Below are positions 10,920 to 24,174 of a stretch of 47,097 nucleotides of DNA, piece after piece. The notes under the pieces are model-generated. The model was not told where the DNA came from. It saw only the letters and a program-made list of their open reading frames with translations, and ran no database searches. Source of the stretch: Actinomycetota bacterium (lineage in GTDB: Bacteria; Planctomycetota; Phycisphaerae; JAACET01); assembly GCA_011682385.1 (NCBI GenBank), contig JAACET010000004.1, forward strand, positions 1-47,097, written 5' to 3'. The stretch's first letter is position 1. The number at the start of each line of letters is the position of its first letter. A program made the translations under genes and the position numbers.

Positions 10920-13325
10920 ATGCGCGAAGAACAACGAGAAAGTTGGGGCTCTCGACCAGCATTCGTACTGGCGGCCGTCGGATCGGCTGTCGGTCTGGGC
11001 AATCTCTGGGGTTTCCCTTACAAACTCTATAGTCATGGCGGGGGAGCGTTTTTGATTCCCTATGTTATTGCCATGCTCTTAGTCGGCCTGCCTCTGCTGA
11101 TAGCCGAATTCTCCCTGGGACACCTGACCCAAAGGGCAACGCCGGAGGCCTTCGGTCGAGTCAATCGGCGATTCGCTTTTGTCGGATGGTGGCAAATCAT
11201 ACTGAGCTTCGTGATCATCACCTATTATGCAGTTATTCTGGCTTGGTGTCTGAGTTTTCTGTACTACTCGGTTGTCGGCATTTTCCAGGGAGCACTACCT
11301 TGGGCCGGCCACGGTCTGGATGGTGTAGAAAAAGCTAAGAGCTTTTTTGAGGTGGATTACCTTGGCAAGACCGAGGGTTTTACTCTAGGGAATATGCGGT
11401 GGCATATCGTGGGGGCTCTGGTGATCACTTGGCTGGCCATGTATTTTTGTATCTTCCGAGGGGTCAGGATGGTCAGCAAGGTGGTTATGTGGACAGTACC
11501 TTTGCCCTTTCTGATGCTGCTAATCCTGACGATTCGGGGGCTTACGCTCAATGGGGCAATGCAGGGGTTGGAGTATTATTTGGAACCCGATTGGGGCAGG
11601 TTGACTAATCCGGCGACCTGGCGTTGGGCATTCGGCCAAATGTTCTTCTCCATGAGTTTGGCCTTTGGAGTAATGATAACCTATGCCAGCTTTTTGCACC
11701 GTAAGAGCGATTTGAACAACAATGCAGCCGTTATCGGCCTGGCCGACATCGCTACGAGCTTCCTGGCCGGCCTGGCGGTCTTCGCCACACTTGGCGGCAT
11801 GGCCTATGCAAGCGCCAGGGCCGGCTCGCCTGTGCCCGTCGAGGCTGTGGCAGTGTCCGGCCCGGGATTGGCTTTCGTGGCTTTTCCGTATGCCTTAGCC
11901 CAGTTACCTCATGCTGCCTGGTTCAGTCTGATATTCTTTGCCAGTCTCTTGCTGCTGGGAATAGACTCGGCCTTCAGTATTACCGAGAGTGTTTTGGCCA
12001 GCATTGTGGATAAGACCGGATGGAGTCGAGGCAAGACCCTGGTCACGATGAGTGTGGTTGGTCTGTTGGTCGGGCTGGTCTTTTGCACTCAGGGGGGGCT
12101 GAGTTGGCTGGGAACGTTTGACGATTTTATTAATGGCACCTGGGGAATCACCTTAACGGCGTTGTTGGAATGTTTAGTCCTGGGGTGGCTTTTCCGGCTG
12201 CGGCGTCTGCGTGAACATGCCAATGAACATAGCGACTGGCGAATCGGCCGCTGGTGGGATTGGAGTATTCGCGTGGTTATTCCCATGGTACTTGCGGCAC
12301 TATTCGCCTGGAGCTTATTTGATAGCCTGGCCAATCCCAAAGGGTATGTCTTCGACTACAAGGCTGAAGGAGTGGCTGTCCAGATACCGGCCAATCGAAG
12401 GCTGCCCCAACAAGCGATGCTGGAGTTACAGTTTACGGCAACTTTTAGTGGCAAAGCTGAACACACCTTCGTACTAGATACGAGCGATCCTACGGAAACT
12501 TCCTCCGGATGGAAAACGGGAACCGACCAAAGTGCCAAAGCTCTGCCGGAGGATTTCAAGCGGACTGACGTACAGGGTAAAGCTCTTCTGTTCAGTACGG
12601 ATTCTTTGACGCCGCAGACTGCTTTTCAGATTCAATACCGCTGGAGTGAACGGTCGGCATCATCCCTGGATCAGCCCCAGTGGATTCAACTGGGCAGAAT
12701 TACTACCAACAGCAGCCGTCAAGGGGTGAACGTAGGCAATGCTGCCGGTTTGTGTCTAATGGCTGTGGCGCCGATTTTGGCTATTATCATTACTTCGGTA
12801 CGGATGCGCGGCCAAGGGCAGGACGAAATCGATCCGGAGACCGATCAGCCCATCCAGGGCACAGCCAGCGGAATTCTGGCTATCCTCTTAGGCTTGGCCG
12901 GCATAGTCCTGCTCATAGTGGCCTTTGTGCAGATGCTTGGCTGCTCGGCTGAGCTTAGGGGCGGGATGAATATAGATGGAGTTCCCGTTGTTGGGTATTT
13001 GATTGTGGCAGGCATTTCGGGGCTGTTGGCTTTACTAATCGGTGGACTCAGGGTGCTTGGATGTGAGAGGTCCAACGGCAGATGCAGCTTAACTGTACGC
13101 TTAGGTTCAGCGATGGGTATCATGTGCCTGGGTGTTTGTGGCGGGTTGGCCTTGGCCTTTGCCATGTTATCCAAGAGTTTCCCGGCCAAGGCCATTGAGT
13201 ATGACAATCAATTGTCCGGGGTCAGCTATGTAATCCTGGGCTGCATGTTGGGTATAATAGTAGTAGGACTGGGCCTGTGTTTTTATTGGGCGATTAAAGG
13301 TCCCCAAACCAATCAAAGTATATGA
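10920..13325 (+). CDS. NSS-family sodium-dependent symporter with large C-terminal extension
   Basis: 801 aa. The N-terminal 460 or so residues are a neurotransmitter:sodium symporter (SLC6/LeuT-type) core. TM1 carries AAVGSAVGLGNLWGFPY, the unwound Na+/substrate-binding helix, followed by further TMs. The likely cargo is an amino acid or amine, not determinable here. Bacterial members are usually 450-550 aa. This one continues with a non-membrane, beta-rich segment (about residues 470-605, starting near NPKGYVFDYKAEG) and then five more hydrophobic segments (about 608-628, 650-672, 692-715, 728-750, 770-793). The last four bases overlap the next gene's start (ATGA), implying translational coupling. 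Confidence 0.88.
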   Translation: MREEQRESWGSRPAFVLAAVGSAVGLGNLWGFPYKLYSHGGGAFLIPYVIAMLLVGLPLLIAEFSLGHLTQRATPEAFGRVNRRFAFVGWWQIILSFVIITYYAVILAWCLSFLYYSVVGIFQGALPWAGHGLDGVEKAKSFFEVDYLGKTEGFTLGNMRWHIVGALVITWLAMYFCIFRGVRMVSKVVMWTVPLPFLMLLILTIRGLTLNGAMQGLEYYLEPDWGRLTNPATWRWAFGQMFFSMSLAFGVMITYASFLHRKSDLNNNAAVIGLADIATSFLAGLAVFATLGGMAYASARAGSPVPVEAVAVSGPGLAFVAFPYALAQLPHAAWFSLIFFASLLLLGIDSAFSITESVLASIVDKTGWSRGKTLVTMSVVGLLVGLVFCTQGGLSWLGTFDDFINGTWGITLTALLECLVLGWLFRLRRLREHANEHSDWRIGRWWDWSIRVVIPMVLAALFAWSLFDSLANPKGYVFDYKAEGVAVQIPANRRLPQQAMLELQFTATFSGKAEHTFVLDTSDPTETSSGWKTGTDQSAKALPEDFKRTDVQGKALLFSTDSLTPQTAFQIQYRWSERSASSLDQPQWIQLGRITTNSSRQGVNVGNAAGLCLMAVAPILAIIITSVRMRGQGQDEIDPETDQPIQGTASGILAILLGLAGIVLLIVAFVQMLGCSAELRGGMNIDGVPVVGYLIVAGISGLLALLIGGLRVLGCERSNGRCSLTVRLGSAMGIMCLGVCGGLALAFAMLSKSFPAKAIEYDNQLSGVSYVILGCMLGIIVVGLGLCFYWAIKGPQTNQSI

Positions 13326-13888
13326 TCGAGCAAACCCGACCATTGACGTCTCGCAGTGTTCAAGAGCAAGCTCTATATTTGTTGGTGATGCCCTGCGGCA
13401 AGTGCCAAGCCGGACCCCTGGTTGAGATCTCTCGTCGACAATCCGACGGTGCTGCCGGTGAGTCCGATGTGGTAGAGACTCGCTGCTGCTCCTGTGGTCA
13501 AGAGACCGCTCTACACTTTCTGCGACAGACCAAAGTACGTGCCACAGCTCGGAGCACATTGATCGACGTGACCGAGTGGCTGGGTCTTTGTCACCATTTT
13601 CTGGATCTTGGACAAACCGAATCCGACGAAGAGCAGACCCAACAGCAAATTAAACTGGCTCGGTACTGTCTGGGCGAAGCCCTGAAGTTTTACCCCGAAG
13701 ATAGTGATTTGCCGGAGGCGTCGGCTTTCTTTGGACGCTTGGGCAATCAGCGACTTAAGGAGCACCCGGCTACGTTTCTAAAGACCAGACTGCTCGAGCT
13801 TCGTCGTCAACTGCCAGCCCTGGCACTAGAGCCGTCCAAGGCTGAGCCGACAGAAGCGAGGAAAAAACGTAAGTGGTGGCGAGTATAA
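13322..13888 (+). CDS. Small zinc-ribbon-like protein coupled to the NSS transporter
   Basis: 188 aa, family not recognised. The N-terminal third has a C-x2-C pair (MPCGKCQAG) and a second Cys group (RCCSCGQET) about 35 residues later, a spacing that fits a zinc ribbon. The rest is helical, with an acidic-amphipathic middle part (LGQTESDEEQTQQQIKLARYC) and a basic C-terminus (ARKKRKWWRV). Its ATG overlaps the transporter's TGA (ATGA at 13322-13325), so synthesis is probably coupled to it. This suggests an accessory or regulatory role, but that is inference. It is convergent with the Mob gene, five bases away. Confidence 0.7.
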   Translation: MIEQTRPLTSRSVQEQALYLLVMPCGKCQAGPLVEISRRQSDGAAGESDVVETRCCSCGQETALHFLRQTKVRATARSTLIDVTEWLGLCHHFLDLGQTESDEEQTQQQIKLARYCLGEALKFYPEDSDLPEASAFFGRLGNQRLKEHPATFLKTRLLELRRQLPALALEPSKAEPTEARKKRKWWRV

Positions 13889-13893
13889 AAGCT

Positions 13894-14853
13894 TTATTTC
13901 ACATCCGGACCGGTTGTATCCAGATAGCTTTGTAGCTGCTGGGGTGTGTTGATGTTCAACCAGGCAGGGCTTAATTCTGCCGGAGGTGCGGTCGATAGAA
14001 CCTTCGAGCCGGCGGCGAGGAGATTTAACGAGAACTTTCGCTGCCGGGCCAATTCTTCCAACAGCGTCCGCGAGCGGAAATCGTAATGGGCCAGCAGTGG
14101 CTCAGCGTTTACCTTGTTCTGTAGCTTCGGCAATGTGGCCCAGATACCCGGTCTGCGGGTCGTCAACAGCCAACGCAATGCCTCCACGGATAGTCCGGGA
14201 AGATCACAGGCGGTTACAAGCCATGATGCCCGCCGAGCCCAGCGCATCGCTGACAGAACTCCCGCCATTGGGCCATCAATCTTGGGGGCGTCGTACAGGC
14301 GAACGCAGTCTCTGAGCTTTTCCGGGAGCATACCAACCCCTGCAATCACCGTGCGGTCGGTGACTTGCCGGAGTAATTCTACAGTGTGCTCCAGCCAGGT
14401 CTTCCCGTTTCTTTCGAGCAGATGCTTTGGTTTGCCCAGGCGAGTGCTTTTACCTCCGATAAGCACGCATCCAAAGACAGGTGTCTTGAGCCATTGGCAG
14501 GACAGCCATTCTTCGAGTATAGCCAGGAGAGTATTGACTCGATCCGATTCTCGCGACAGTGCAGCCAGAGCTATTCTCCCCTGGTTCGAATCCTCCTGCT
14601 GGTCGTCGTTGAGCAGCCAAACCTGCGGTAAGGGCGTGCTTCGGCAACCCTCGACCAACATAAGGTCATTTTGTTGGGACAGAGAACTAAGCAGTGAACA
14701 TAGCTTTTCTGTGCCGGTGTTTTTTGGATCGTGTGCTGCAACAGCGACGTCCAGTCCTTGGGCACGCAGGCGGGGGAGAATTGCCTTGATAAGGGTAGTC
14801 CGTCCGGAGCCAGGCTTGCCGCATATCCCAAAGGCTGGAAGGTTGTCAAGCAT
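13894..14853 (-). CDS. MobB-MobA fusion (molybdopterin-guanine dinucleotide synthesis)
   Basis: 319 aa from ATG 14853; a GTG at 14898 would add 15 residues. The N-terminal half is a MobB-like P-loop adapter. Its Walker A reads GKPGSGRTT, with Arg in place of the usual Lys, followed by LMLVEGCRSTPLPQVW as in MobB. The C-terminal half is MobA: CVLIGGKSTRLGKPKHLL (the L-A-G-G-x-S-x-R-M-G GTP-binding motif), DGPMAGVLSAMRWA, LVTACDLPGLS and WLNINTPQQL. MobA links GMP to molybdopterin to make the MGD cofactor; MobB is an accessory GTPase. No other molybdenum gene is nearby. The gene is convergent with the zinc-ribbon gene and its start faces the flavoprotein gene. Confidence 0.88.
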   Translation of the reverse strand: MLDNLPAFGICGKPGSGRTTLIKAILPRLRAQGLDVAVAAHDPKNTGTEKLCSLLSSLSQQNDLMLVEGCRSTPLPQVWLLNDDQQEDSNQGRIALAALSRESDRVNTLLAILEEWLSCQWLKTPVFGCVLIGGKSTRLGKPKHLLERNGKTWLEHTVELLRQVTDRTVIAGVGMLPEKLRDCVRLYDAPKIDGPMAGVLSAMRWARRASWLVTACDLPGLSVEALRWLLTTRRPGIWATLPKLQNKVNAEPLLAHYDFRSRTLLEELARQRKFSLNLLAAGSKVLSTAPPAELSPAWLNINTPQQLQSYLDTTGPDVK

Positions 14854-15001
14854 AGAGTCTTTTCCGTGTCCTGCTTTCTGTAGAGAAAAACGCAGCACAA
14901 AACTGCAACGGAATGCTAGTGCAAAAAACCATTGATTGCAACAGGACGTGCATGTTGGGATATTGCTCGTATCTACGCGGGGACTGTGCTAGATTGCCAC
15001 C

Positions 15002-16261
15002 ATGTGTTCGCCTGCTACAGAAGCATCTTTCGATGTCGTGGTTGTCGGCGCTGGGGCAGCGGGCCAGATGGCCGCGATCGCCGCTGCCCAGGAGAACCGC
15101 AAGGTCTTACTGTTGGAGCAGATGGATCAGCCGGGCCTGAAGATCCTGGCCAGCGGCGGCGGACGGTGCAATCTGAGTAACCTGGCGGGGCCGGAGGCAT
15201 TTTGCGCGGCTTTTGGCAAGCAGGGCCGATTCGCGACGGCAGCTCTAGCGGTGATGAGCCCAGAGGAACTGCGACGATTTCTGGATCGCATAGGTGTAGT
15301 AACTATCGTAGATGATGATGTGCGGGTTTACCCGGCCAGCCAACGTTCCGCCGATGTGCAGACTGCCTTGCAAAGACAGATCAAGCGGCTTGGCGTGGAA
15401 CTTCGCTTGGGATGTGCCGTCCGTAGACTATGGATAGACTCCGGCCAACTAATGGGCGTAGAGGTTCGTGCGGGCTACCGTATTGCTGCCGCTCGGGTCG
15501 TGTTGGCCTGTGGCGGAAAGAGCTGGCCGAAACTCGGCGGAACAGGCCGCGGATATGCCTTGGCCCAACAGGCAGGCTTGGAGATCACAGAACTTTTGCC
15601 GGCGCTGGTTCCGCTGCTCATCCAGCAGCGTTGGACCGCCCGCTTAGCTGGCGTAAGTCTGCGGCGAGTTCGCCTTTGGATCGATTTACCTGGACAGGAC
15701 AAGACCGGCCTGACCGGCGACTTATTGTTTACGCATCGCGGTCTTTCCGGACCGGTTACGCTGGATATCTCCGGCCGAGTCTCGGAACTTCTGCGCCTGG
15801 GGCCAGTGCCTTTGCGAATCGAACTTGTAGCAGGTATGGACGCAACCCAGTGGACCCAGCGTCTGGAGGACTGGCGCAGCTCAGTTGGTGGCCGTAAGGT
15901 GGCCAATCTTCTACAAGATTATCTGCCCCGGTCGTTCTGCGCAGTGCTTTGCGAACTGGTCGGTATGAGAGAGCAAACCAGCGTGGCACATCTGACAGCG
16001 GATAATCGCGACTCGCTGGCCAAGTTGCTCAGTGGTCTGGAACTGACTGTGACGTCCACAGAAGGCTTCGAAGTGGCCTTTGTGACCAGAGGCGGAGTGA
16101 AATTGCAGAGGGTCGATCCCAACACGCTTCAGAGCCGTTCGCTGACGGGATTGTATCTAGCAGGTGAAATGTTGGATATGGATGGACCGTCCTGCGGATT
16201 CAATCTGCAGTGGGCCTTTGCCAGCGGTTGGCTGGCCGGCAAATCTGCTGCTCAACGATGA
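15002..16261 (+). CDS. BaiN/HI0933-family FAD-dependent oxidoreductase
   Basis: 419 aa. A dinucleotide-binding Rossmann motif (DVVVVGAGAAGQMAAIAAA) is followed by the family-specific GLKILASGGGRCNLSN. The C-terminal signature AGEMLDMDGPSCGFNLQWAFASG closes the FAD site. Family members bind FAD and some reduce steroid or aromatic double bonds, but most are uncharacterised, so the substrate is unknown. Length matches the family's usual 390-420 residues. It starts at ATG 15002, next to the divergent MobB-MobA gene. No partner gene follows; the next feature is the tRNA on the same strand. Confidence 0.9.
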   Translation: MCSPATEASFDVVVVGAGAAGQMAAIAAAQENRKVLLLEQMDQPGLKILASGGGRCNLSNLAGPEAFCAAFGKQGRFATAALAVMSPEELRRFLDRIGVVTIVDDDVRVYPASQRSADVQTALQRQIKRLGVELRLGCAVRRLWIDSGQLMGVEVRAGYRIAAARVVLACGGKSWPKLGGTGRGYALAQQAGLEITELLPALVPLLIQQRWTARLAGVSLRRVRLWIDLPGQDKTGLTGDLLFTHRGLSGPVTLDISGRVSELLRLGPVPLRIELVAGMDATQWTQRLEDWRSSVGGRKVANLLQDYLPRSFCAVLCELVGMREQTSVAHLTADNRDSLAKLLSGLELTVTSTEGFEVAFVTRGGVKLQRVDPNTLQSRSLTGLYLAGEMLDMDGPSCGFNLQWAFASGWLAGKSAAQR

Positions 16262-17981: not shown

Positions 17982-20645
17982 GTGGTCAGAAACTTTTCAA
18001 TCCCCATAGCGGCCCTGGTATTGCTTGTTTCATGGACGAATTGTACAAAGGCTCAGGACGAATCGGACAAACAAACAATTAAACTTAGAGCCTGGGGGGT
18101 GCCCACCAGTTCCAGCGGAGTTAGTAGTCTGGCAAACTTGCGAGTCCTGGAGGAATTCCAGAAAAAATTTCCCTATATTAAGCCAGTTTCCTCCACGGGC
18201 ATCCGCATGCCCGGTGGGTCCAGGACCATGAACATGGTTCCCCTGATGCAGATTGCCGGGGATATTCCAGCCCACGTTATGTATGTGAATTTCCGGCAGT
18301 CCGATACCTACATCCGGAACAAGTTTCTTTATCCGCTCGACAAATATATTGAGAAAACTCTCGGTCTGGACATCACGAATGGTCAGAACATGGAGCTGGA
18401 CGAGTATCTGGCTGAATTGGCGAAATCTCCCGAGTACGAAACAGAAATCGAGCCGCGGATTCCACATCAGTGCTGGGAAGTTATGCGCCGCGAATGCCCT
18501 TATAAAGAGAAATGCCTGTTTGCAAAGGTGAACGGCGGGCAATGGGAGTTTGATCCGACAGAAAAACACTACCACGTGTGGGCCTTTCCGCAGGGGCCGC
18601 TGGTCACGGCGCTGCTGTATCGCAAGGATCTGTTCCACGAAGCAGGGCTTCCGGATCGGGTGCCGCGAACGAACGAAGAATTCTTTGAGTTTGCCAAGAA
18701 GCTGACTAATCCGGCGGAAAATCGCTTCGGCGTGAATATGCCCCTGGATGAAGTGCTGTCCTACAGAACACTTAGCTTCCTATACTCAGCTGGCGGCCGA
18801 CTGGTTGATCGTGACGAAAACGGTGAATGGCGGTGCCTGTTTGATAGTCCCGAGGCGGTGGAGGCCTACTTCTTCGTAGCCCGTCTGGTTCATGAGCCAT
18901 TTAAAGGGCCTGATGGAAAGACGATGTCGTCGGTAGTCTATTCCGGCGAAACTCGCGGCGGACAGGTCTACGTTGCAATGCAGTTTGCCAACATCGACCA
19001 AAGGGTCTTTCGAAACCAAGACCCCAATGTTATGGGTTTTGGGCCGGTGCCCCTAGGGCCAACGGGAAAGAGGGGCAGTGAGTTCAACTCTAGAATGACC
19101 GGTATTTTCGCCGGGCTGGAAGGTAAAGATAAAGAAGACATACGCGACGCGGCCTGGGAATACATCCGCTTTTATGACGGTCCGGAGGCCAGAAAGATCC
19201 GCACCAAAGTGTATGTCGAACACGGCCTGGGACGGTTCGTTCAGCCTGATCTTCTCAGAGCTGCCGGCTACGAAGAATATATTCGTCAAATCCCTAAAGG
19301 CTGGCCCGAAGCATATCAGGAGGCCCTAAAGACCGGTGTGCCTGAGCCTTATGGTAAGAACTGCCAGAATGTGTATAGCTATGCCTCCAAGGGCATCAAC
19401 CAGATCCAGACCGATAAGGAGGTAAAAGAGGCGATTGTAGCTCGCAAAGAGGCCCTGGACGCCGGCGATGCGGCGCTGGCTGCAAAGTGGGAAGGGCGAG
19501 CCAAGGAACGGATCAGGGATATCCTCAAGGTGCAGGTTCGAATAAGCAATGACAAGATGCTGGATATCCTTGAGCCGACAGAGCGCAAAAAACGTAATAC
19601 CGTTGCGACCATCGTGGCTGTATCGATCCTGGTAATCTTCGTTCTGTTGTTCCGCAAGGTTTTCAAGGTATTCGACGCGGCACAACTGCGCGACCCCGGC
19701 GCACCCAAAGGCAAATGGCAGTTCACTCGCTACAAATGGGCCTACCTGTTGCTTGTTGTGCCGGTAGGCTCGGTCATACTTTGGCAGTACTACCCCTTGG
19801 CCAGAGGCACCGTGATAAGCTTCCAGAACTATAACATTCGCGGCTTCTACGAATGGGTGGGGATGGCCAACTTTGCCTCGGCCCTGTATGATGTGGAATT
19901 CTGGTACTCCCTGTGGGTCACACTGAAATATGCCTTATTGTTCATGCTATTCGGGTTTACGGCTCCTATCGTGCTGGCCTTTTTGCTGACCGAAGTGCCC
20001 AAGGGCAAAATACTCTACCGGACCATTTACTATCTGCCGGCGGTACTGACAGGGCTGATTGTGATCTACCTGTGGAAGAGTTTCTACGGCCAATATGGCA
20101 TGATAAATCAGGCGGTTAACTTCTTTGTACACATACTGAACTGGCTCCCTGGTGTTCAGCTCGCGGAACTGCACAAGAATTGGCTGAGAGATCCACAACT
20201 GGCTCTGATCTGCATCCTCCTGCCTGCTATCTGGGCGGGCATGGGACCAGGCTGCCTGATATACCTGGCAGCGCTAAAGACAGTGCCAGAGGAGATCTAC
20301 GAGGCTGCCGATATCGACGGGGCGGGGATACTGCACAAGGTCTTTTACGTGGCCATTCCCAACATCAAGGCCCTGATCATGATTAACTTCATCGGGGTCA
20401 TGGTGGCGACAATGAAAGGCAGCGGCAACATGGCTTTGGCCATGACCGGTGGTGGGCCATACACGCCGTACGGCCAAACTGAGTTTGTGGGACTAAAGAT
20501 TTTCTTTCAGGCCTTCGGTTACTTGCGTTTCGGGGTGGCTACAGCAATGGCCTGGATATTGGGGTCAATGCTGGTCGGGTTCACGGTTATACAGTTGCAG
20601 AAACTGAGCAAGATGGAGTTCAAAACCGCAGCCGGGATTAAGTAG
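17982..20645 (+). CDS. ABC transporter: solute-binding protein fused to MalF-type permease
   Basis: 887 aa. Residues 1-24 look like a signal peptide. About 30-535 resemble an extracellular family-1 sugar-binding protein, including LLYRKDLFHEAGLPDRVPRTNEE and GRLVDRDENGEWRCLFDSPEA. A TM helix at about 540-558 links to a permease domain (583-880) with six hydrophobic segments and the EAA loop EEIYEAADIDGAGILHKVFY, which docks the ATPase. It probably imports an oligosaccharide or uronide. Starting at GTG 17982 with AAAGGTG upstream, it is followed after 10 bases by the MalG-type gene. No ATP-binding subunit lies in the window, so a shared ATPase must be supplied from elsewhere. A separate SBP gene is the usual arrangement, so the fusion is notable. 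Confidence 0.88.
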   Translation: MVRNFSIPIAALVLLVSWTNCTKAQDESDKQTIKLRAWGVPTSSSGVSSLANLRVLEEFQKKFPYIKPVSSTGIRMPGGSRTMNMVPLMQIAGDIPAHVMYVNFRQSDTYIRNKFLYPLDKYIEKTLGLDITNGQNMELDEYLAELAKSPEYETEIEPRIPHQCWEVMRRECPYKEKCLFAKVNGGQWEFDPTEKHYHVWAFPQGPLVTALLYRKDLFHEAGLPDRVPRTNEEFFEFAKKLTNPAENRFGVNMPLDEVLSYRTLSFLYSAGGRLVDRDENGEWRCLFDSPEAVEAYFFVARLVHEPFKGPDGKTMSSVVYSGETRGGQVYVAMQFANIDQRVFRNQDPNVMGFGPVPLGPTGKRGSEFNSRMTGIFAGLEGKDKEDIRDAAWEYIRFYDGPEARKIRTKVYVEHGLGRFVQPDLLRAAGYEEYIRQIPKGWPEAYQEALKTGVPEPYGKNCQNVYSYASKGINQIQTDKEVKEAIVARKEALDAGDAALAAKWEGRAKERIRDILKVQVRISNDKMLDILEPTERKKRNTVATIVAVSILVIFVLLFRKVFKVFDAAQLRDPGAPKGKWQFTRYKWAYLLLVVPVGSVILWQYYPLARGTVISFQNYNIRGFYEWVGMANFASALYDVEFWYSLWVTLKYALLFMLFGFTAPIVLAFLLTEVPKGKILYRTIYYLPAVLTGLIVIYLWKSFYGQYGMINQAVNFFVHILNWLPGVQLAELHKNWLRDPQLALICILLPAIWAGMGPGCLIYLAALKTVPEEIYEAADIDGAGILHKVFYVAIPNIKALIMINFIGVMVATMKGSGNMALAMTGGGPYTPYGQTEFVGLKIFFQAFGYLRFGVATAMAWILGSMLVGFTVIQLQKLSKMEFKTAAGIK

Positions 20646-20655
20646 ACAAGTAAAA

Positions 20656-22665
20656 ATGCCTATTATCAGCGAAATAGGAAGTCGCAGCCTCAAGGTCCGC
20701 CTGGTTTACGGGACAATATTCCTTGTCCTGAGCATCGGTGCGGTGACCATGATTTATCCACTGATGCTGATGCTTTCGGGTTCAGTCAAGAGTCAGACCG
20801 ACATCATGAAGATCTCGCCCTGGCCCAGATACTGGTTCGACGAGTTGGCCCTCTTTCAGAAATATACCGAATCCAAATACAACGTCTCCCTGCCCGAAAT
20901 TGAGAAGGCCTGGCATCGGACGGTGCGTATTTACGACAAAATTGAAGAACCCGTACCCTGCGATCCGCAGCTTCTGGAAAGTTTCCTCGCCTGGCGCCAA
21001 CAGTGGCCCTGGTGGACATTGGGTCATGCCCAGGGCGGTAGTATGTTGCCCGAAAATGGGCGAGAGTTCCGCAAATTGATGTCCGAACGCTTTGGTGGCG
21101 GCCCAATCGGGCTCAAGGCTTTCAACACCGAAATGGGTATGCCGCTCAAGTCCTGGTCTGATGTACAGCCTCCGGTGCAGGGAGTGTTCCGTTACCCACG
21201 CCCGAGGCAGGGCCTTGTGGCGGCCTTCCTGGACTTCGCTGAGAAACAGCCCGTCCGCGATCGAATTATTCCCAACCTGGATGGTGAGTTCTGGAAATTG
21301 TATCTGGTTCCCAAATATACCAACGATATCGAGCAGTATAACCAAAAGCACGGGACGAATTACGCCGGCTACGATGATGTAATGCTGAGCGAACGCGTTC
21401 CCAATGGCGAGCTACAACGGGCCGACTGGGAAAAATTCGTCAGAGAACTGCTGGATTTCCAGTTCATTCGGCTCTCGCCTGAATTGACCGAATCGTATCG
21501 TAGGTTTCTGGCCAGTGAAAGTAAGTATGCCAGCGGCATAGCGGAATACAACCGCAAATTCAACAAGACATACGCATCCTTTGATGAGATTCCATTTCCT
21601 ACGACACTTCCCGCAGACCGCATGGAGCAGGTGGACTGGGGTGAGTTCATAAAAAATCGCCAGTTCTGCCCAGCCGAGGGTATTGAAGTGTATGGACCTC
21701 GGCAAGCCTTCGAAGAGTACGTGGCCAAGCAACGAGGCGTTCCCGTAGAACAGGTCAGACCCCTACGGCCACCGATTGCTGCGGCCGACTGGAACGATTG
21801 CATGGCCAACAAGAGTCATTACCGCTGGGAATTCACCACCAGGAACTATAAACAAGTCTTTGATTATATCCTGCTTCACGGAAGGGGAATTCGCAATACC
21901 CTCATCTACTGCTCGCTGGCAGTCGGCCTGGCCCTTCTGGTCAATCCACTGGCAGCCTACGCCTTGAGCCGATACAAACCGCCCAGCCAGTACAAGATAC
22001 TGCTGATCTGCATGGCTACTATGGCCTTTCCGGCTGCGGTGACCATGATTCCTGCCTTTCTCCTACTCAAGCGGTTTCCACTATGGTCGCTGCTGGGTGG
22101 CGGTGTGGGATTCGCTGTGGCCATCTGGCTGATCAGTAAGTTTTTCAAGAACCTCAAAGAGTCGATTCGGCTGGTCTTGTCCCTTGGTGTTGGGATACTG
22201 GTCGGGGTGTGGTTGATGCCGGCGGTAACAGGCAAACCGTATGTCAGTCTTCTAAATACTTTTGCAGCCTTAGTGTTGCCCGGTATGGTCAACGGCTATA
22301 GCATCTTTCTGTTGAAGGGGTTTTTCGATAGTCTGCCACGCGAGTTGTATGAAGCCGCCGATTTGGACGGGGCCAGTGAATGGACCAAATTCTGGTCGTT
22401 CACCATGAATCTTTCCAAGCCCATCCTGGCCGTGATAGCCTTGGGGGCCTTTACAGCCGCCTACAGTCAGTTCATGATGGCCCTGATAATCATTCCCGAT
22501 CGGAACATGTGGACGCTTATGGTCTGGATATTTCAGTTACAGAGCACTGCCCATCAGGCGGTCGTTTACGCCTCGCTGGTGATTGGGGCTATCCCGACGT
22601 TCCTGATCTTCGTGTTCTGCCAGGGAATCATCATGAGAGGTATTGTCGTGCCAACAGAGAAATAG
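20656..22665 (+). CDS. MalG-type ABC permease with large repeat-bearing extracytoplasmic insertion
   Basis: 669 aa, more than twice the usual 270-300. TM1 is at about 16-40. The loop between TM1 and TM2 is expanded to roughly residues 50-405. Within it are two diverged copies of a unit with about 70-residue spacing: YTNDIEQYNQKHGTNYAGYD (221-240) to DWEKFV, and YASGIAEYNRKFNKTYASFD (291-310) to DWGEFI. The core permease resumes at about 410, with EAA loop RELYEAADLDGASEWTKFW (562-580). A second insertion of about 57 residues (about 474-531) between two core TMs adds a probable membrane hairpin. It forms the second half of the heterodimeric channel with the preceding fusion protein. The enlarged loop could contact the fused binding domain (inference). 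Confidence 0.87.
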   Translation: MPIISEIGSRSLKVRLVYGTIFLVLSIGAVTMIYPLMLMLSGSVKSQTDIMKISPWPRYWFDELALFQKYTESKYNVSLPEIEKAWHRTVRIYDKIEEPVPCDPQLLESFLAWRQQWPWWTLGHAQGGSMLPENGREFRKLMSERFGGGPIGLKAFNTEMGMPLKSWSDVQPPVQGVFRYPRPRQGLVAAFLDFAEKQPVRDRIIPNLDGEFWKLYLVPKYTNDIEQYNQKHGTNYAGYDDVMLSERVPNGELQRADWEKFVRELLDFQFIRLSPELTESYRRFLASESKYASGIAEYNRKFNKTYASFDEIPFPTTLPADRMEQVDWGEFIKNRQFCPAEGIEVYGPRQAFEEYVAKQRGVPVEQVRPLRPPIAAADWNDCMANKSHYRWEFTTRNYKQVFDYILLHGRGIRNTLIYCSLAVGLALLVNPLAAYALSRYKPPSQYKILLICMATMAFPAAVTMIPAFLLLKRFPLWSLLGGGVGFAVAIWLISKFFKNLKESIRLVLSLGVGILVGVWLMPAVTGKPYVSLLNTFAALVLPGMVNGYSIFLLKGFFDSLPRELYEAADLDGASEWTKFWSFTMNLSKPILAVIALGAFTAAYSQFMMALIIIPDRNMWTLMVWIFQLQSTAHQAVVYASLVIGAIPTFLIFVFCQGIIMRGIVVPTEK

Positions 22666-22684: not shown

Positions 22685-23926
22685 TTACATAAAAACTGGT
22701 TTTATATGCCTTTCATAAATATTTTCCGTGACATTCTCAGCAATGGTTTCATCGTATTTGTCTAAGACCTTCAAATAATCGTCACCCATTTCAGCGGCGA
22801 TTTTATAACCAACATGCAGTAGTTGGCGGAAATGCAAATTATACTGTGGGTATCTTTGATTATGCCGCAGTGTATTAGCGTATTCTTGGCCGGTCCAGCC
22901 TTCAACAACCTCCGGCGGAGGAAGCAGTTTCTTGTCAATATCAATAACTGTACTATAGGGGCCGCAAAGTTCTTCGAATCGGCCCAGAGCATTGTGGTAA
23001 ATATTTTTTGCAATTTTCAATCCTTCACCGCCGGCCATAGCCAGACCAATGAGCTCCTCCAGCCATGTCGTACCAGCCGTCTTAATGTGCAGGCCAGCGC
23101 CGGTTTTTTTCAAGGCTTTGTTAATCGGTCCATAAATGGAAAACTTGTCGCTCCCGGAATGAATACTTAATTTTAGATTCTCAGGCAACCCAAATTCGAC
23201 GACGGCAGTTTTTATAACAGCCAAATCTGCTTCAAACTCCCTGGCAAATTGCTCAACTCGTCCAATGTAATCCACTCCTTTATTGAATCTTCCGGTGAAC
23301 TTAGGCGCAATTGTCTGTGCCGCAATACCCTCCTCAGCGATAGCTGCGAGAATAAAGAACATTTCAACCGCTGTTTGAGGTTCATCTGCTTCGTCCATTG
23401 ATACTTCAGCTATGAAATTACTCTGGCCTTTAATTGCTTTGATGTGCTGGTAGATTTTACCTGCTTCTTTTACGGCCAGTAGATATTTTCGCGTGATGAT
23501 CTCAATTTGCTCTCTGGAAATATCAGAACTTCCTTCAATCTCTGTGGCGAGCAGGTGGCTATATTTTTCATATTTGCTGACGAATGCCTTTATGTCATCT
23601 TCGTCGGCAGGTCGGCCAATAGAATCCGCTACATCAATAGTGTAGAAATCACTCGAAGGAACAAACAAATCGACATTCTTCAGGCCGATGTGGTCGGCGT
23701 CGACATGATACGTGCCCTTCCAGCCTAAAGACTTGACGGCCTCGTCTGCCTCAATGCGTACATCAGCCGGCAACGTTTTGATAATGGTATGTTCCCGGTG
23801 CGATTTGTTCCATACCGGCACAATGTCAACACCTTGTTCTTGGGCCTTGATTATCGACCGCAACTGTGCTTTGCCCTGTCGGCCAAACCTGTCGCCAACG
23901 CCAAATGAATATTTTCCCAGCTCCAT
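22685..23926 (-). CDS. uxaE: Tagaturonate epimerase family protein (UxaE-like)
   Basis: 413 aa from the ATG of MELGKYSFGVGDRFGRQGKA, chosen because TGAGGTG lies seven bases upstream; the frame extends 18 codons further without one. UxaE enzymes interconvert D-tagaturonate and D-fructuronate in galacturonate breakdown. Conserved-looking segments include VPVWNKSHREHTII, YHVDADHIGLKNVDLFV (possible metal ligands Asp/His), KLSIHSGSDKFSIYGPI and LHIKTAGTTWLEELIGLA. Assignment is by recalled family resemblance and is good rather than certain. It is convergent with the ABC permease genes, 19 bases apart. The DNA is visibly AT-richer than its neighbours and an IS3-like remnant lies just upstream, suggesting transfer. 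Confidence 0.75.
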   Translation of the reverse strand: MELGKYSFGVGDRFGRQGKAQLRSIIKAQEQGVDIVPVWNKSHREHTIIKTLPADVRIEADEAVKSLGWKGTYHVDADHIGLKNVDLFVPSSDFYTIDVADSIGRPADEDDIKAFVSKYEKYSHLLATEIEGSSDISREQIEIITRKYLLAVKEAGKIYQHIKAIKGQSNFIAEVSMDEADEPQTAVEMFFILAAIAEEGIAAQTIAPKFTGRFNKGVDYIGRVEQFAREFEADLAVIKTAVVEFGLPENLKLSIHSGSDKFSIYGPINKALKKTGAGLHIKTAGTTWLEELIGLAMAGGEGLKIAKNIYHNALGRFEELCGPYSTVIDIDKKLLPPPEVVEGWTGQEYANTLRHNQRYPQYNLHFRQLLHVGYKIAAEMGDDYLKVLDKYDETIAENVTENIYERHIKPVFM

Positions 23927-23967
23927 TGTTGAACACCTCATGAATAGGTTGTCACTTTCATCAGTGA

Positions 23968-24174
23968 TCATTGTAGCCAATATGCTGTATCATCGCCAGC
24001 TTCTTGACGCAGCAACACACTGATCCGACGATATCCATATCTGGGCCAGCGAAGAGCCCGCCGACCGTGAAGATACTCCACGGTTCGCCGCCAGCGGCAG
24101 TAGCTCTGCGGGCTGAGTTCAATTTTCCGGCAGACTTCTTTTCTGATAGGTGTTGATTTGTTGCCCCATAGATG
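23968..24174 (-). mobile_element. IS3-family transposase (OrfB) remnant
   Basis: In the 431-base gap before typA, a minus-strand frame open from 24174 to a TGA at 23968-23970 reads STPIRKEVCRKIELSPQSYC, then RWRR and later RWPRYGYRRISVLLRQEAG. This matches the N-terminal part of IS3-type OrfB, where a helix-turn-helix segment is followed by the YGYRRI-x-x-LLRREG motif. The catalytic DDE core is missing and no terminal inverted repeats are seen, so it is a dead fragment. The rest of the gap (24175-24357) holds no gene that I can support. Confidence 0.6.

Follow-up and report, generated by a model that had tools for sequence, protein, structure and literature searches.

In descriptions of type I importers, a permease is combined with a binding protein that is either diffusible or singly tethered. 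The MalFGK2-MalE system of Escherichia coli shares with the locus described here the heterodimer of MalF and MalG cores, the EAA motif and a solute-binding protein (SBP) of the SBP_bac_1 type. On the other hand, it has a free MalE, a P2 domain on MalF, a MalG P1 loop of about 50 residues with no repeats, and a dedicated MalK. The permeases of OpuA and GlnPQ from Lactococcus are homodimeric and come from other families. These two systems resemble the present one in that the substrate-binding domain is covalently joined to the permease (PMC11065425, PMC8025302), and differ from it in that no repeat array is carried by a second subunit, whereas in the present system one of two unlike subunits carries the SBP at its N terminus. 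According to Daus et al. 2007, as cited in PMC3150292, MalE interacts with both the P2 domain of MalF and the P1 loop of MalG. No published account of a MalG repeat array combined with an SBP-MalF fusion was found in the open-access literature, subscription papers being mostly outside the search, and the architecture is apparently undescribed, a variant of the MalFG-type importer.

The window, meaning the whole stretch of DNA that was analysed, comprises 47,097 nucleotides of contig JAACET010000004.1, from a genome deposited as Actinomycetota bacterium and placed by GTDB in the Phycisphaerae (Planctomycetota). Features are on its forward strand unless stated otherwise. The MalG-type permease with inserted repeats occupies 20656-22665 including the stop codon (coding 20656-22662, 669 aa; verified open reading frame, Pfam and MalG alignment) and starts 10 bases 3' of the stop codon of the SBP-MalF fusion. 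Residues 448-659 pass the threshold of PF00528 (BPD_transp_1; 33.3 bits, cut-off 26.4) and the protein is of the MalG/UgpE type, while the maltose MalG equivalog NF008231 is not satisfied (58.6 bits versus a cut-off of 261). Segments 7-40, 96-147 and 156-290 of E. coli MalG (2r6g_G) align with residues 10-45, 422-474 and 533-664, which leaves a net insertion of about 321 residues in the P1 loop, between TM1 and TM2, and another of about 50 residues between TM3 and TM4. This bears out the initial annotation, which had described a MalG-type permease with some 350 residues inserted after TM1.

Outside both insertions the MalG core is normal and the EAA motif is intact. This coupling motif, the ATPase contact site, lies at 22342-22422 (residues ~563-589) and is recognized by its invariant residues, E563, E566, D571, G572, A573 and P589 being unchanged throughout the family alignment. 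TM1 maps to 20689-20775 (residues 12-40, one helix in the predicted model; mean hydropathy 2.18 over residues 20-40). It is followed by the expanded P1 loop at 20776-21879 (residues 41-408), delimited by hydropathy and the MalG alignment and extracytoplasmic by topology. No hydrophobic helix was found inside the first insertion, where no 19-mer exceeds a hydropathy of 0.39, and MalG topology places this insertion on the outer side of the cytoplasmic membrane.

The P1 loop holds an array of tandem units of about 65-75 residues each. The motifs from which diverged copies had been proposed were found, and their pairs are exactly 70 residues apart (Y221/Y291 in Yx3Ix2YNxK, Y236/Y306 and DW257/DW327). 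Comparison of the single sequence with itself gave z = 16 for R3-R4 and z = 5.8 for R1-R4, each unequalled in 1000 shuffles, and the remaining unit pairs were not significant, R2-R5 being marginal. Since the single sequence supports these two pairs only, profiles were needed. With family profiles from a 15-member alignment (hhalign), all six pairs among R1-R4 are significant (E 7.5e-8 to 3e-17), with true scores well above those of the column-shuffled profiles used as a null. Isolated high scores in this null were dismissed as an artefact with one aligned column.

The units are R1 at 20833-21039 (residues 60-128; E 5e-8 to 7.5e-8 against R2-R4), R2 at 21040-21270 (129-205; E 1.3e-8 against R3 and 9e-11 against R4), R3 at 21271-21474 (206-273; E 3e-17 against R4), R4 at 21475-21684 (274-343; hhalign and self-alignment, with a weak Pfam GH42 match at 274-333) and a shortened R5 at 21685-21840 (344-395; weaker, E 5e-5 to 3.5e-3). 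The fifth unit is more distinct in loci L016, L018 and L054. An all-unit profile detected between 3 and 7 units in the majority of 51 family proteins, many of which lay outside the training set; of 1020 shuffled inserts, none scored above 6.2 bits. Judged by these profiles, the window array is composed of five units, R1-R4 mutually supported and R5 more weakly. The internal repeat claimed by the initial annotation is hence significant, and its count of at least two copies rises to five. An apparent MalG loop of 702 residues in L062 was taken as an open-frame artefact and left uncounted.

AlphaFold2 predicts an alpha-helical repeat domain for the insert alone (pLDDT 92.6, pTM 0.88), and for full-length MalG a mean pLDDT of 80, with values of about 80-96 across the insert. 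The typical predicted unit consists of two helices, a short turn, a third helix and a short strand. A Foldseek search of the whole insert domain against the PDB returned nothing at E <= 0.001; enzymes of GH42, GH14, GH50 and GH167 were among the weak local matches, the best of which covered 57 columns at 2.7 Å. The R3+R4 profile, compared with the PDB, matched GH42 beta-galactosidases (9ta3, E 5.6e-9; 1kwg, E 1e-6, at its residues 155-217) and, more weakly, GH14, GH167 and GH50 enzymes. Pfam GH42 matches 10 of the 15 family inserts, with a best E-value of 1.5e-11. In the window MalG the match to PF02449 (GH42) is below the cut-off (17.6 bits versus 21) and covers positions 147-210 of the 376 in the profile; no Pfam or NCBIfam family is above threshold in this insert.

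The matched segment amounts to about a sixth of the GH42 profile and presumably sits after barrel strand 4 of the fold. Other GH42 parts, including the rest of the (beta/alpha)8 barrel with the catalytic acid/base and nucleophile glutamates, were not found in the insert. Because only this small part of the profile is matched, the array is not an enzyme. Profile similarity indicates homology between each unit and a single helical segment, about 60 residues long, of GH42 beta-galactosidases (PF02449; 1kwg, 9ta3), the catalytic parts not being included. Compared with the enzyme, the array has no barrel and no catalytic residues, occurs as five tandem copies and is membrane-anchored. In the search for relatives, tandem unit matches were confined to these MalGs, and the single matches that were tested were mostly GH42-like enzymes.

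This ancestry is the starting point for one explanation of the array as a carbohydrate-capture module, whose glycosidase-derived units would bind a polymer or long oligosaccharide and pass its end on to the SBP. Such a role agrees with a complete GH42 beta-galactosidase gene that shares a locus with one copy of the importer (L129, 14589-16718), and the variable number of units would fit avidity for polymers. However, the segment retained from GH42 is a helical scaffold whose remaining barrel is missing, and conservation within the insert is highest at P, N, W, L and F residues, some nearly invariant, which have the look of structural positions and not of a binding platform at the surface. Carbohydrate capture is possible, though we hold it to be rather unlikely.

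The partner gene encodes an SBP-MalF fusion of 887 aa with a GTG start at 17982-20645, including the stop codon. Its Pfam domains are SBP_bac_1 at residues 193-404 (54.4 bits, cut-off 26) and BPD_transp_1 at 679-853 (35.8 bits, cut-off 26.4). A probable signal peptide, read from the sequence (residues 1-25, 17982-18056), precedes the solute-binding domain (residues ~30-540, 18069-19601; Pfam and family profile). An extra transmembrane helix that would tether the SBP follows (~545-567, 19614-19682); it corresponds to a hydrophobic stretch, and the topology requires one. The MalF/UgpA-type permease core extends over residues 583-874 (19728-20603), where the NCBIfam UgpA model aligns from position 9 to 287 with no long gap, so that a P2-type insertion is absent from this core.

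The initial annotation had asked whether the insert always accompanies such a fusion. In loci with enough upstream sequence, a same-family SBP-MalF fusion nearly always adjoins the insert-bearing MalG. Among the exceptions is L134 (2703-5603), where a single TAG, with ATG ATG shortly after, interrupts the common frame of SBP and MalF; located at the junction past the tether helix, this TAG amounts to a natural fission of the fused gene. The frame changes in L130, L232 looks decayed and the partner of L019 is on a different contig. The MalG is alone in 11 Armatimonadota genomes, with no MalF nearby, and each of these genomes has one family SBP-MalF elsewhere (E 1e-68 to 1e-80, next best ~1e-35); of the unlinked Armatimonadota fusion loci, four were read and none has its own MalG. 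Unlinked genes of this kind are found in L256 (5662-7104), L269 (5304-6833) and L275 (3706-5202), and in several genomes the lone MalG adjoins a flagellin-like gene on the opposite strand.

Among 20 genomes scored as insert-free, a fusion was present in G457 only, where an insert-bearing MalG missed by the threshold directly adjoins it. Before this correction, the Fisher value for co-occurrence was 1.4e-7, a figure that ignores the relatedness of the genomes. The insert-bearing MalG strictly co-occurs with the SBP-MalF of one family, usually as its neighbour and even where the genes are unlinked, and the insertion did not turn up in many unrelated MalGs with separate binding proteins.

The converse does not hold. 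Other SBP-MalF fusions from the same bacterial class (for example L188, L191, L196 and L203) likewise have SBP_bac_1 and MalF in one chain, and some of their partners also have long P1-loop inserts, whereas these MalGs are ordinary or have an unrelated insert and belong to a different permease clade. About 11 other-family fusions go with MalGs of ordinary or modest loops, and seven with MalGs bearing unrelated P1 inserts of about 250 to 800 residues. No comparable loop was seen among about 20 unfused MalF pairs, TM1 being unresolved in several. An association of fusion and insert that is obligate in both directions was rejected on account of these ordinary MalGs beside other fusions. The distinct class with extracytoplasmic domains on both subunits stands as first described, while the SBP-MalF fusion is not peculiar to it.

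A different, non-repeat P1 insert of about 250 residues is present in L188 (3221-5065), L190 (2272-4104), L191 (3174-4955), L192 (3314-5254), L193 (5412-7088) and L200 (5070-6749), each beside another SBP-MalF fusion; the sequence looks beta-sandwich-like, and the three inserts that were scanned had no Pfam match. The MalG of L066 (8776-12951) has about 800 residues between TM1 and TM2, with an insert lacking a Pfam match, and adjoins another SBP-MalF fusion (13190-15889). These unrelated inserts in the P1 loop, and the varying number of units, would suit an array that is largely a passive spacer or a neutral expansion in a tolerant loop. Its retention across several phyla in a monophyletic family, its nearly invariant residues and its confident predicted fold make this reading improbable. 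Two further fusions were observed: L199 (3584-5755) has a 724-aa open frame holding MalF-type and MalG-type cores, a possible MalF-MalG fusion, and L056 (5805-10295) encodes a 1497-aa MalF relative with weak SBP matches at 49-403 and 768-853 and about 365 residues between them.

The second insertion of the window MalG is a transmembrane hairpin at 22081-22230 (helices 476-496 and 502-525; family alignment, model and hydropathy). Both hydrophobic helices agree with what had been noted from the sequence; the hairpin as a class feature does not survive. The window's clade has it, and so do L017, L141, L143 and L146. It does not occur in L014 and L127, which belong to the window's clade, nor in most of the family. 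The hairpin is optional, coming and going along the permease tree, and it was rejected as a defining trait of the class because most of the family lacks it.

In the permease tree the insert-bearing cores form a single clade against other MalGs. Besides Phycisphaerae, relatives were found in other Planctomycetota, in Armatimonadota, in Verrucomicrobiota and in one genome of Omnitrophota. A match was recorded in 22 of 392 sampled genomes of the window's phylum, in 93 of 201 of the phylum to which L019 (an Armatimonadetes record) belongs and in 67 of 241 of that of L018 (a Verrucomicrobiia record), all upper estimates since the weakest partial matches may be GH42 enzymes. On the evidence of the alignments, the family is monophyletic, belongs chiefly to Armatimonadota, Verrucomicrobiota and Planctomycetota, and has about 3-7 units. 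The window's genome has a second family pair, L010 (3345-6274) and L009 (3-1886), which seems to run off the end of contig C28 and resume at the start of C57; these contig ends do not overlap cleanly.

No ATPase gene lies beside the MalG/SBP-MalF pair in the window. A single OB_MalK ATPase is encoded in the window's genome, at C139, where neither a permease gene nor an SBP gene is evident next to it, and multitask or shared ATPases of the MalK type are documented (PMC7658222). Directly downstream of MalG, a UxaE-type tagaturonate epimerase is encoded on the opposite strand (22685-23980), with no clear substrate link.

Neighbouring genes also bear on whether the array could serve as a platform not for the SBP but for some other component of the periplasm or envelope, such as peptidoglycan, an outer-membrane receptor or a glycoside hydrolase. 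Tandem alpha-helical repeats often serve as protein-binding scaffolds, and in GH42 enzymes a loop neighbouring the matched segment helps to form the subunit interface. Against such a platform, no recurring third gene was noticed beside the pair in an unsystematic view of the neighbours, and some Armatimonadota with a lone MalG gene still keep an SBP-MalF. We consider this explanation unlikely.

We favour, and infer, a docking-scaffold role for the array, with glycan capture as its main rival. The window pair would form a type I ABC importer, heterodimeric and taking up a carbohydrate or a related solute, with the SBP joined to the N terminus of MalF through the extra transmembrane helix. The five-unit alpha-helical array on MalG P1 would keep the tethered SBP at the permease mouth through the transport cycle, enlarging the known MalE contact at this loop and replacing the P2 domain absent from MalF. 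ATP hydrolysis would be provided by a shared MalK/MsmX-type ATPase encoded elsewhere. In favour of docking are the strict partnership of insert-bearing MalG with SBP-MalF, the confident predicted fold of the array, the place of the insert in P1, a loop contacted by MalE in the account quoted above, the absence of P2 from MalF and the covariation of SBP and insert; the lone OB_MalK ATPase speaks for a shared ATPase. Conditioned on both membrane domains, the SBP and insert distances have a partial correlation of 0.63 raw and 0.56 rank-based (p 0.001), the latter falling to 0.28 (p 0.023) without long branches; the SBP and MalF core, though covalently joined, show no such correlation. This covariation can also stem from shared rate effects of two fast-evolving domains. 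Two observations count against docking: the number of units ranges from about 3 to 7 while the SBP shows no obvious change to match, which is unexpected for a snug cradle, and tethering alone needs no array, given that ordinary MalGs serve other SBP-MalF fusions. We give the whole explanation, a type I importer with the SBP tethered to MalF, a GH42-derived MalG array as docking scaffold and a shared ATPase, an even chance of being correct.

In this importer both subunits have permanent external modules, the second being a repeat domain from a glycosidase fragment, and the array would be a rare case of a catalytic-domain fragment turned into a tandem repeat. With slightly less confidence than an even chance, we regard the family as a widespread importer class in which obligate external modules on both subunits would act as one docking unit, P1 in several SBP-fused systems being an entry point for independent scaffold domains. 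Given that the genes co-occur even when unlinked and that the array is a separable domain, its role is directly testable. Given also the large share of sampled Armatimonadota and Verrucomicrobiota genomes with a match, this importer may be a main uptake route in these poorly cultured groups.
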